Positions 51,800 through 54,032 of a DNA stretch of 64,000 nucleotides are shown one piece after another (positions within the stretch are counted from its first letter, which is position 1; the number at the start of each line of letters is the position of its first letter). The notes under the pieces were generated by a model. The model saw nothing but the letters and a program-made list of their open reading frames with translations. It searched no databases and was not told the DNA's origin. The translations under genes and the position numbers were made by a program. The DNA is from Thermococcus henrietii (GTDB lineage: Archaea; Methanobacteriota_B; Thermococci; Thermococcales; Thermococcaceae). Location of the stretch: positions 1,612,001 to 1,676,000 of the forward strand of contig NZ_LT900021.1 in the NCBI RefSeq assembly GCF_900198835.1. Direction: 5' to 3'.

Positions 51800-53074
51800 T
51801 TAAAGGTGCTCCATATTCAATGTTTTCTCGAGGCTCTCCTTCGCGATTTCTAGCAGGTCTTCAGGGGTCAGCACTTCCATTCCTTCTGGTTTACGTTCGA
51901 GGACGTCTTCGCTCGGAACAACGAGCACTCTGCGGCAGTCGAAGCGCGAAAGCTTCTCCTCAATCTTCCGCACTTCCTCTCTCTTCACCCGCTCCTTCCA
52001 CTTGACCTCTCCGACGAGTTCGAGCCTGTTAAATCCCCGCAGAGCAATGTCGAGCTCAAGCTGGGGAAGCTCAACACTCACCCTTCTCAGGCCGTAAGCC
52101 TTGGCGAGCAAATCCGCTATGAAGTCCTCGACGTGCCTTGGAAGTTTGTAGTCAACGGCCCTTCTTATGAACTCAACGGACGTTTCAAGCTCGGTGTAGG
52201 CGTACTTGGCCTCAAGGTAGAAGTGCAGGTCGAGGAGAGGTGAGACGTGCCTGTAAACGAACTTTTTGCGCCTCTTGCCCTGAACCAGGAACTTGCGCAG
52301 GATTCCCATCTTCGTGAGGATTGTGAGGTACTTCTGGAGTGTCCCGGGGTTGTCCTTCTTCAGCAGGCCGCGGGAGAAGAGTGCAGAGGAAAGCTCGGTG
52401 CTCGTCCCCTTTCCGTTGGCGACTTCCATCATTATCCCGAGGTAAACCCTCGTCAGCTCGTGGCCCTCTTCGCTGAATGTCTCGCCAACGAGCTCGCTCA
52501 CGAATGAACCTGAGGACGAAAAGAAGCCGGTTAAAAAGTCCCTCAGCGGAGGTTTGTAAGCCGGCACGAGCATGGGCTCCCTCAGGTAGGTGGATGCCTC
52601 TATCAGCTCCTTTCCCTTCACTTCCTTCGACAGCTCGACTAAGATTTCGCGCTCGTCTATGAGTCCGATTTTCACGAGGAAGGCTATCCCGAGGAGCGGG
52701 CTTTCCCTCATCGAGAGCAACCTTTGGGCGAGCCACATCGTTGAGGTTACGAGGATTATCCCGCTATCCTGCTCAGTTGAGTACGCATGCAGGAGGTCGA
52801 GGAAACCATCGGGGAGGCGGTGGAACTCGTCGATGACGATTCTTCTCTTCCCTTTAACCAGCCTTGGAAAGAGTCTCATGAACTCCTGATAGGTCATCTT
52901 GTCGCTGCTCAGCCTGTCGTGGACGGTGCCGTCCTTGTTCACGAAGAAGAACTCGTCGTAGTCGAGAAAGTGCTCGACGAGGAAGGTCTTGCCGGTCTTT
53001 CTCCTCCCGTAGAGCATCTTCCAGCCCGGGTATCTCAGGAGGGCACGTTCAATTCTTCGAGGAATTATTCTCAT
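51800..53074 (-). CDS. Archaeal STAND-like ATPase with DUF234-type C-terminus
   Basis: A 424-residue ATPase. P-loop YGRRKTGKTFLVEHFL near residue 25, Walker B RRIVIDEFHRLPDGF, sensor-like ILVTSTMWLAQR, then winged-helix regions (SSALFSRGLLKKDNPGTLQKYLTILTKMGILRKF) and a C-terminal DUF234-like domain with LELVGEVKWKERV, a nuclease-like strand pattern. This family is expanded and variable in Thermococcales, and its role is unknown; links to mobile DNA are suspected. The start codon lies in the middle of a 24-base palindrome. Confidence 0.8.
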   Translation of the reverse strand: MRIIPRRIERALLRYPGWKMLYGRRKTGKTFLVEHFLDYDEFFFVNKDGTVHDRLSSDKMTYQEFMRLFPRLVKGKRRIVIDEFHRLPDGFLDLLHAYSTEQDSGIILVTSTMWLAQRLLSMRESPLLGIAFLVKIGLIDEREILVELSKEVKGKELIEASTYLREPMLVPAYKPPLRDFLTGFFSSSGSFVSELVGETFSEEGHELTRVYLGIMMEVANGKGTSTELSSALFSRGLLKKDNPGTLQKYLTILTKMGILRKFLVQGKRRKKFVYRHVSPLLDLHFYLEAKYAYTELETSVEFIRRAVDYKLPRHVEDFIADLLAKAYGLRRVSVELPQLELDIALRGFNRLELVGEVKWKERVKREEVRKIEEKLSRFDCRRVLVVPSEDVLERKPEGMEVLTPEDLLEIAKESLEKTLNMEHL

Positions 53075-53218
53075 GAGAATAATTCCCGCGGGAATAGTTA
53101 TAAAGGTTTTGGGCTTCCCCCCGAATATAACCCCTCATTGCGCTGAGCCTTCCTGATGCTGTGCCTTTGATTCTTTTTAGAATGATTCTTCGGGAGAATT
53201 ATTCCCGCAGGGATAATT
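53062..53218 (-). promoter_or_regulatory. Palindrome cluster controlling the ATPase gene
   Basis: A perfect 24-base palindrome (53062-53085, half-site GAATTATTCTCA) is centred on the ATG at 53074. Overlapping it is ATTCCCGCGGGAAT (53082-53095). The minus-strand TATA box CCTTTATAAC follows at about 53096-53106. Farther upstream are AGAATGATTCT (53180-53190), ATTCT/AGAAT arms (53185-53199) and ATTATTCCCGCAGGGATAAT (53199-53218), which repeats the ATTCCCGC motif. Two operator groups 120 bases apart suggest cooperative or looped repression, perhaps autoregulation. The rest of 53219-53400 holds only a weak dyad (AGCTGAG/CTCAGCT near 53262-53285) and the vapB promoter. Confidence 0.55.
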
Positions 53219-53400: not shown

Positions 53401-53619
53401 ATGGAGATAGTGGTGAAACGTCTCGACTCCCAGGGCAGGCTTCTCATTCCCCGTGAGATTAGGGAGAAGCTTGGTGACGAAGTCATAATAGTTGACCTTG
53501 GCGATAGGGTGGAGCTCCTTCCGAGGAGGAGAGCCAACCTGCGGAAGTTCTTCGACAGTGTTGAGATTGATGAGCTGAAGGAATGGGAGGAGCTCAAAAA
53601 GGAGCTGTGGATGGAATGA
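53401..53619 (+). CDS. vapB: VapB antitoxin, AbrB/SpoVT type
   Basis: A 72-residue antitoxin with an N-terminal swapped-hairpin AbrB domain (VVKRLDSQGRLLIPREIREKLGDEVIIVDLGDRVELLP) and a C-terminal acidic helix (IDELKEWEELKKELWME) that would occupy the toxin. The TATA box CTATTTATATC lies near 53361-53371, and GGTGGTTAT precedes the ATG. The toxin gene starts at the antitoxin stop (ATGA). The AbrB domain normally also represses its own promoter. Confidence 0.9.
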   Translation: MEIVVKRLDSQGRLLIPREIREKLGDEVIIVDLGDRVELLPRRRANLRKFFDSVEIDELKEWEELKKELWME

Positions 53620-54032
53620 GGTTCATCGACGCCAACGTCTTCATCTACGCGTTTCTAAGGCCGAAGAAGGAGCCACCGGAGAACGTTAAGGAAATCAAGG
53701 AGCGGGCCAAGGCGATACTCACGAGGGTGAGTGATGGCGAGCGTGTTGTAACTACGGTCGTCCATCTGAGCGAAGTGGCCAACGTCGTCGAGAGCAGGGG
53801 CAGGAAAGAGAAAGCAGTTGAGGTCGTTCTGGCGGTTTTGACGAGTGAGAACATTGAAGTTCTTCCGGTCTCTCCCAGTGATTACTTGAAGGCAACTCTC
53901 ATAGCCGAGGAGAAAAACCTCGGCGTGAACGACGCTTTGGCCTACGTTAAGATGAAAGAACTCGGCATAGGAGAGATTTACACGTTCGATAGGGACTTTG
54001 AAAAGCTCGATGTCATGGTGGTGAACGAATGA
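53616..54032 (+). CDS. vapC: VapC PIN endoribonuclease toxin
   Basis: A 138-residue intact PIN domain: MRFIDANVFIYAFL (first Asp), HLSEVANVVESRG (Glu), LGVNDALAYVKMKELG (Asp) and YTFDRDFEKLD (last Asp). The ATG at 53616 overlaps the vapB stop by 4 bases. Its own stop overlaps the surE start (ATGA at 54029-54032), so surE is cotranscribed with the toxin-antitoxin pair, an unusual neighbour. Confidence 0.92.
   Translation: MRFIDANVFIYAFLRPKKEPPENVKEIKERAKAILTRVSDGERVVTTVVHLSEVANVVESRGRKEKAVEVVLAVLTSENIEVLPVSPSDYLKATLIAEEKNLGVNDALAYVKMKELGIGEIYTFDRDFEKLDVMVVNE

Follow-up and report, generated by a model that had tools for sequence, protein, structure and literature searches.

A 15-bp palindrome array runs through the start codon of an archaeal ATPase gene and is a probable private operator for autoregulation

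The window analysed here is a 64,000-nucleotide stretch of Thermococcus henrietii DNA (1612001-1676000 of the 2.16-Mb single-contig genome). On its minus strand lies a gene for a 424-residue ATPase (51800..53074), recognised from the ORF list, a match over cut-off to PF13173 and a structure model. Its start codon (53074-53072) sits inside a tandem array of 15-bp palindromic units, ATTCYNNNNRGAAT-N on the coding strand, three of which occupy 53052-53095, stretching across the ATG from a point immediately downstream of the TATA box to codons 2-8, with a second trio at 53170-53217. The coding strand reads CTTTATAA-CT-ATTCCCGCGGGAAT-T-ATTCTCATGAGAAT-A-ATTCCTCGAAGAAT. Unit 1, ATTCCCGCGGGAAT (53082..53095, minus strand), found from the sequence by repeat search, is the sole exact copy in the genome and lies directly below TTTATAA, just where the original prediction had seen a palindrome; unit 2, ATTCTCATGAGAAT (53067..53080, minus strand), holds the start codon; unit 3, ATTCCTCGAAGAAT (53052..53065, minus strand), defined by sequence and codon conservation, falls within codons 4-8. 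The palindrome across the ATG had been described as perfect over 24 bases; it is perfect and does hold the ATG, with a length of 26 (53061-53086), comprising unit 2 as its core and flanking half-units, and it overlaps ATTCCCGCGGGAAT by 5 bases. The distal trio (53170..53217, minus strand; plus-strand starts 53170, 53185 and 53201) lies about 95-145 bp upstream of the ATG and includes ATTATTCCCGCAGGGATAAT at 53198-53217. What had been taken for separate palindromes plus an upstream group is thus present, as units of one 15-bp tandem array with a trio at each place.

The distal array has counterparts in L003 and in L041/L277, and none was seen by eye in the remaining same-genus orthologues inspected. 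Upstream homology between L004 and L003 stops, breakpoint-like, at the end of L003's distal array, about 85-90 bp before the ATG. Adjoining the ATPase at 53401-54032 are a VapB-like gene (AbrB type, by eye) and a VapC-like PIN gene (PF01850), and neighbours resembling this pair (by eye) occur at L012 and L030. Control of the pair by the distal array was considered and set aside: the array ends about 180 bp before the pair's start, and has its counterparts in L003 and L041. No toxin-antitoxin partner gene was found beside the ATPase, which stands outside the two-gene arrangement of type II and type IV systems. The downstream neighbour (51765-50791) is radical-SAM-like by eye, and the neighbours vary among orthologues, likewise by eye.

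The promoter is well defined. The TATA box TTTATAA (53098..53104, minus strand) is identified by its sequence, by conservation at -40 to -21 (mean 1.05 bits in 22 same-genus genes) and by published spacing; an A-rich, BRE-like stretch (about 53105-53113, from sequence) lies upstream of it, and 23 bases separate it from the ATG. In T. kodakarensis the TATA box lies a median 23 bp upstream of the transcript start and about 14% of mRNAs are leaderless, according to PMC4247193; in T. onnurineus it lies between -30 and -20, according to PMC5316973. Because the TATA spacing fits this published rule, the transcript of the window gene very probably has its 5' end at the ATG or beside it, i.e., it is leaderless, and the 5' arm of the palindrome would thus not be transcribed.

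The palindrome cluster is real, as the original prediction held: shuffle and reversed-pattern controls agree. The best inverted repeat of the window-gene start scores z 7.7 (p 0.005, 200 dinucleotide shuffles), and by the same score p<=0.01 is reached at 0/63 and p<=0.05 at 1/63 of the other ORF starts of the window. The two-unit pattern with at most one mismatch has a single occurrence in its own genome, at the window-gene start, and the reversed pattern, at the same tolerance, has 0 matches in 61 genomes.

The protein combines three parts. The AAA_14 ATPase core (residues about 15-200, from the Pfam match and structure model) matches PF13173 with 36.4 bits against a curated cut-off of 27 (residues 19-115), and all 13 members of the family alignment match AAA_14 at E<=0.1. 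Its Walker A motif, G23-R-R-K-T-G-K29, and the Walker B residues V80, D82, E83 and F84 are invariant in this 13-sequence alignment. The core is followed by a predicted winged helix (residues about 202-276, from the model and its structural neighbours), which has PadR/MarR-type regulators among its structural neighbours, and by a C-terminal alpha/beta PD-(D/E)XK-like domain (model and alignment) in which D342, E356 and K358 are invariant in the same alignment. This last domain is a presumed nuclease, a label drawn from its D342...E356-V-K358 motif and strand order. The model has a mean pLDDT of 75, with residues 1-37 below 50; Foldseek alone gave no match for it at E<=0.001. The nearest solved fold is PAB2304 (2qen; Z 13.6, rmsd 4.0, 249 aligned), then SSO1545 (2fna; Z 12.4, rmsd 4.2, 244 aligned), and after these archaeal ATPases the full-length structural neighbours are NLR and CED-4 chains (Z about 9.3-10.7). 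A sequence search of the PDB with the 13-sequence alignment returned no family member (best E 0.14), NCBIfam gave no match for the window protein, and neither C-terminal DUF234 (PF03008) nor DUF4143 (PF13635) was detected in it at E 0.1; DUF234 is present in paralogues L060 and L054, and DUF4143 in L087, L076 and L086. Among six proteins scanned with PADLOC PDC-S01 and PDC-S27, the greater part of the sequence is matched in L076 (3e-113) and in L060 (2.5e-43), whereas the window protein matches only partly and weakly (E 1.9e-6, residues 18-113). The L076 and L060 matches to phage-defence candidates are in keeping with a need for tight control.

Within the genus, the array is kept with the gene. 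An orthologue (>=60% identity) occurs in 21 of 61 same-genus genomes (14/37 plus 7/24, some copies broken), and in 20 of these 21 the array lies within one mismatch at the orthologue's start; the original prediction had named a lack of conservation in orthologous promoters among the outcomes that would refute it, and this check did not refute it. In the 21st, G072 (L279), the array is more degenerate. The two-unit pattern, at up to one mismatch, is found in 27 of the 61 genomes, 20 times at an orthologue start and 7 times as an orphan; the remaining 34 genomes have neither orthologue nor pattern, G072 being counted among the 7 orphans. In an ATG-aligned set of 22 genes chosen by protein match alone, per-base information is 0.10-0.18 bits at -160 to -41 and 1.05-1.68 bits at -40 to +39, where the downstream share is partly coding constraint; upstream of the ATG, only BRE/TATA and the array are conserved. 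Codon 2 is AGA in 22/22 of these genes, codon 4 ATT in 22/22 and codon 7 AGA in 18/22, and the synonymous bases of codons 3, 5, 6 and 8 vary. Synonymous constraint over codons 2-9 is no more than a trend in the protein-chosen set (excess 0.27 vs 0.09, P 0.066), with windows near codon 221 as high or higher, which weakens it as strong evidence and leaves the principal arguments intact; a less clean test, on a set chosen partly with a DNA pattern containing codons 2-4, gave 0.30 vs 0.08 (P 0.025). Locus L014 is without an intact start frame, and L024 was left out of the protein comparisons.

The same form recurs far beyond the genus. A scan of named genomes gave 167 related loci, and the best 80 of the 167 come from Thermococci, Archaeoglobi, Thermoplasmata, several DPANN groups, Pyrodictiaceae and others; because these relatives are mostly MAGs, single taxon assignments may be wrong. 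The closest named relatives of the window gene among the best 80 are from Thermococcus MAGs. Over 78 of the 80 start regions (L188, with no start, and L210, near an edge, were dropped; several near-identical Thermococcus genes are included), direct self-match peaks at lag 15, at 0.471 vs 0.306 in shuffles (z 21.9), and the symmetry axes fall at -14.5 and +0.5, 15 bp apart. For 292 neighbouring starts the mean is still 0.338 when up to 3 are compared and the best one is kept (MWU P 8e-20). Lag-15 identity reaches 0.45 or more in 45/78 single genes vs 18/292 neighbours; the array is therefore not equally clear in all relatives. By eye, the motif differs by branch, with ATTCYNNNNRGAAT in the window's branch and mostly GTATAAYNNNNRTTATAC forms elsewhere. 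A TATA-like hexamer lies at -45 to -10 in 60/78 (in 34 of these at -32 to -28, and in another 11 at -11, where it is array-like) and, in an interval of equal width further up, in 23/78.

More than 20 distinct family genes over cut-off are present in the T. henrietii genome itself, and the original prediction had asked for the same palindromes before such paralogues. Many paralogues do have palindromes, but different ones. The AAA-type set comprised 33 start regions (32 distinct genes over cut-off, plus L023, whose start is set too far up) and includes genes resembling RFC, Cdc48 or Orc1 by eye (L089, L098, L099 and L068), these four having z 1.2 or less. An inverted repeat is significant at p<=0.01 in 13/33 and at p<=0.05 in 19/33, window gene included, that is, in 18 of the 32 AAA-type loci other than the window gene; against the 63 other ORF starts of the window the difference has MWU P 5.8e-10 (dinucleotide shuffles). 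The remaining 14/33, not significant by this single-repeat score, include non-family genes and some by-eye tandem cases, such as L056 and L059 with 15-bp repeats, which were missed because the score sees one inverted repeat only.

Array similarity makes the point quantitatively. Among 351 own-genome paralogue pairs (27 genes, after L089, L098, L099, L068, L023 and L080 were dropped) it has a median of 7 and a 95th percentile of 11 (shuffled 7 and 9). Among orthologues, the median is 25 and the minimum 20 for the window gene (n=25, chosen partly with the DNA pattern that contains codons 2-4), 36 and 30 for L060 (n=10), and 48 and 25 for L087 (n=11); sister groups, at about 49-57% identity, range from 6 to 14 (n=19), and their motifs differ. 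These group comparisons were made without L221 and L263 (both with a misplaced start), L250 (no start), L225, L238, L243, L255 and L271. A TTTGCAN6TGCAAA set is common to the L087 orthologues (11 compared, 74-94% identity) and a TACTAATCNNGATTAGTACTAATCATGATTAGT-like set to those of L060 (10 compared, 65-96% identity); in the two paralogue groups followed up, the motif is thus common to orthologues, not to paralogues. Since the motifs differ, one shared regulator for all ATPase paralogues was ruled out. There are exceptions: L057, L062, L063 and L064, PF01637 paralogues of the same genome, share one motif with scores up to 29, and could be recent duplicates or a cross-regulating set. By eye, other genera of the family have a AGTTTACTTGCAAGTAAATTACTGGTGAGTAAAT-like motif at seven loci, and so do L272-L274. 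Seven PF01637 genes of a further genus in the family, L295-L301, most of them encoding about 330-360 residues, show no visible array at their starts, some of these starts being uncertain; the rule of private arrays is accordingly not universal.

The motif class changes together with the winged helix. In 29 orthologues, chosen partly with the DNA pattern that contains codons 2-4, the base between units is C in 11 and A/T in 18, and, the first 14 columns being left aside in this and the following count, this split is reproduced perfectly by 12 winged-helix columns (216-276) and one ATPase column (51), the winged-helix columns including the recognition-helix region 239-246 with its two-residue gap. 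Strong columns (>=0.7) number 27/78 in the winged helix, 8/187 in the ATPase core and 0/138 in the C-terminal part. In the winged-helix tree and the ATPase tree alike, one branch separates the C class from the other sequences. In the winged-helix tree this split is 1.19 changes per column long (0.72+0.47); for the rest of the protein, the tree gives the C-class branch 0.075. The one motif change among close orthologues coincides with a branch of abrupt change in the winged helix and next to none elsewhere in the protein. For the C-terminal part the C-class clade is rejected (p-AU 0.0084), which brings recombination into play. A search for independent events of coevolution between winged helix and motif found one on the trees, so that the coevolution stands at n=1 and does not amount to a statistical test; a winged helix and an operator rewired together are as self-recognition predicts.

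We interpret the array, with good though incomplete confidence, as a private operator that the ATPase reads with its own winged helix for negative autoregulation of its leaderless gene. Palindromic sites lie at the gene's own promoter and are conserved with it, as in autoregulatory operators, and this reading is the best supported one because the array travels with the gene, is private within the genome, and changes motif class with the winged helix. The original prediction of control by the ATPase's own winged helices gains on these three counts. We envision that several ATPase molecules, or dimers, would bind the 15-bp-spaced palindromic units and cover the DNA between the lower edge of the TATA box and about +23, and that RNA polymerase would thereby be blocked at the leaderless promoter, holding down the amount of an ATPase-nuclease that is probably dangerous. 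The tandem spacing of 15 bp makes cooperative binding plausible, and in the few genes that have one the distal trio may add occupancy or looping. In this scheme we infer binding, repression over activation, oligomer state, ATP use and nuclease activity.

Other explanations have to be weighed against this one. The original prediction had the palindrome also form a hairpin that masks the start codon in RNA, and RNA starting at -12 or above would indeed let the 26-mer close as a hairpin of 11 bp (72 nt at -18.8 kcal/mol, z -1.97). However, the TATA spacing puts the predicted transcript start at the ATG, RNA beginning there shows no better folding than its shuffles (z 0.34), and a hairpin offers no role for the 15-bp period or for units 1 and 3; on the predicted start and the folding we discarded this role, which we hold to be very improbable. 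That the palindromes reflect chance or mere AT-rich promoter composition might be suspected, since AT-rich sequence is usual in promoters and short repeats in two copies are frequent, but the shuffle, reversed-pattern, neighbour-gene and orthologue controls leave this reading practically no probability.

The arrays might instead be operators read by a separate host regulator, or by several. For many known archaeal operators the reader is a separate winged-helix repressor, and reading by the ATPase is a matter of deduction; yet one protein cannot explain different motifs at different paralogues, the array persists in several unrelated gene contexts and across phyla, and the motif change accompanies a change in the ATPase's own winged helix, so that this option, which the original prediction had also offered, loses ground and appears unlikely. 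A different reading makes the array a mobility or maintenance site (a target, an end or a partition-like site) of a mobile ATPase-nuclease gene, with repression as a by-product. It draws on the gene's patchy distribution in several unrelated contexts, on the end of L003/L004 shared sequence at L003's distal array, and on the orphan two-unit arrays, which lack an intact orthologue alongside in 7 genomes and which count against a pure operator because an operator would not need them. At each of the 7 orphan sites another genome has the ATPase (contexts by eye): four follow a pterin-synthase-like gene (G072, G077, G029 and G082), one an M42-type peptidase gene (G079) and one the gene that precedes L009's ATPase (G030), and one lies beside vapC with a 52-residue stub (G034). 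Against a mobility site stand the fixed position of the array relative to TATA and ATG and the lack of any array, by eye, in about 110 bases inspected past the ATPase 3' ends; we regard it as quite improbable, and the orphan arrays may be scars.

Among known systems the protein stands closest to the archaeal AAA ATPases of the SSO1545/PAB2304 kind (2fna, 2qen; ATPase_2/AAA_14), whose match spans its ATPase core and winged-helix region and to which it adds the C-terminal PD-(D/E)XK-like domain; the open literature searched yielded nothing on an operator or self-regulation of SSO1545 or PAB2304. It shares the order of ATPase then winged helix with STAND/NLR-type ATPases (CED-4, plant resistosomes), the same neighbours that appear in the structural comparison, and to our knowledge these do not read the operator of their own gene. 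Members of the RepA family of repABC plasmids reportedly autorepress their individual operons specifically within one genome, which resembles the member-specific self-repression by an ATPase family proposed here; RepA belongs to a different, ParA-like ATPase family with a role in partition. The AbiEi and Rv2827c antitoxins autoregulate their own promoters through inverted repeats, with positive cooperativity for AbiEi and negative for Rv2827c, according to PMC7319586. As proposed for the window ATPase, each is a DNA-binding protein at its own inverted repeats; in contrast to these modules of two genes, toxin and antitoxin, the window gene has the presumed DNA reader, ATPase and presumed nuclease in one protein, and its sites run through the start codon.

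Autoregulation via multiple inverted repeats is already known in other families (PMC7319586). New, as far as the open literature searched goes, is an ATPase family whose private operators incorporate the start codon; among the matches listed in that literature, with subscription papers mostly outside, there was no report of palindromes or operators before these ATPases. Family ATPases are numerous in the genome, and private operators that are kept with the gene and, in the window's subfamily, recur in form across archaeal phyla suggest that such a protein sets its own level, and offer a way to test this. They would also constitute a natural set of matched winged-helix/operator pairs from which thermostable, mutually independent switches might be made, and a case of a regulatory site reaching into the first codons of leaderless genes. 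More speculatively, and in our view doubtful though worth stating, Archaea might keep orthogonal, self-addressed ATPase-nucleases in which every paralogue has a winged-helix/DNA address to itself, for the window gene the 15-bp array over its start codon, the array holding oligomeric ATPase and nuclease inactive until lost occupancy, for example upon virus attack, frees the protein and switches the gene on as a guard-type defence; gene-less arrays would then be relics or decoys.

Several broken copies and orphan sites merit a brief description. The orthologue L014 (G028) looks broken, being without the stretch around the Walker A motif, and has kept its array; G077 (L287/L292) has an ATPase remnant only, with in-frame stops. 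The orphan arrays lie at about 1501-1529 in L038, L045, L046, L051, L048, L036 and L030, and those of G072 and G077 are identical 29-base arrays. In the orphans after the pterin-synthase-like gene, A and T runs flank both sides, and these arrays could now be working as terminators.
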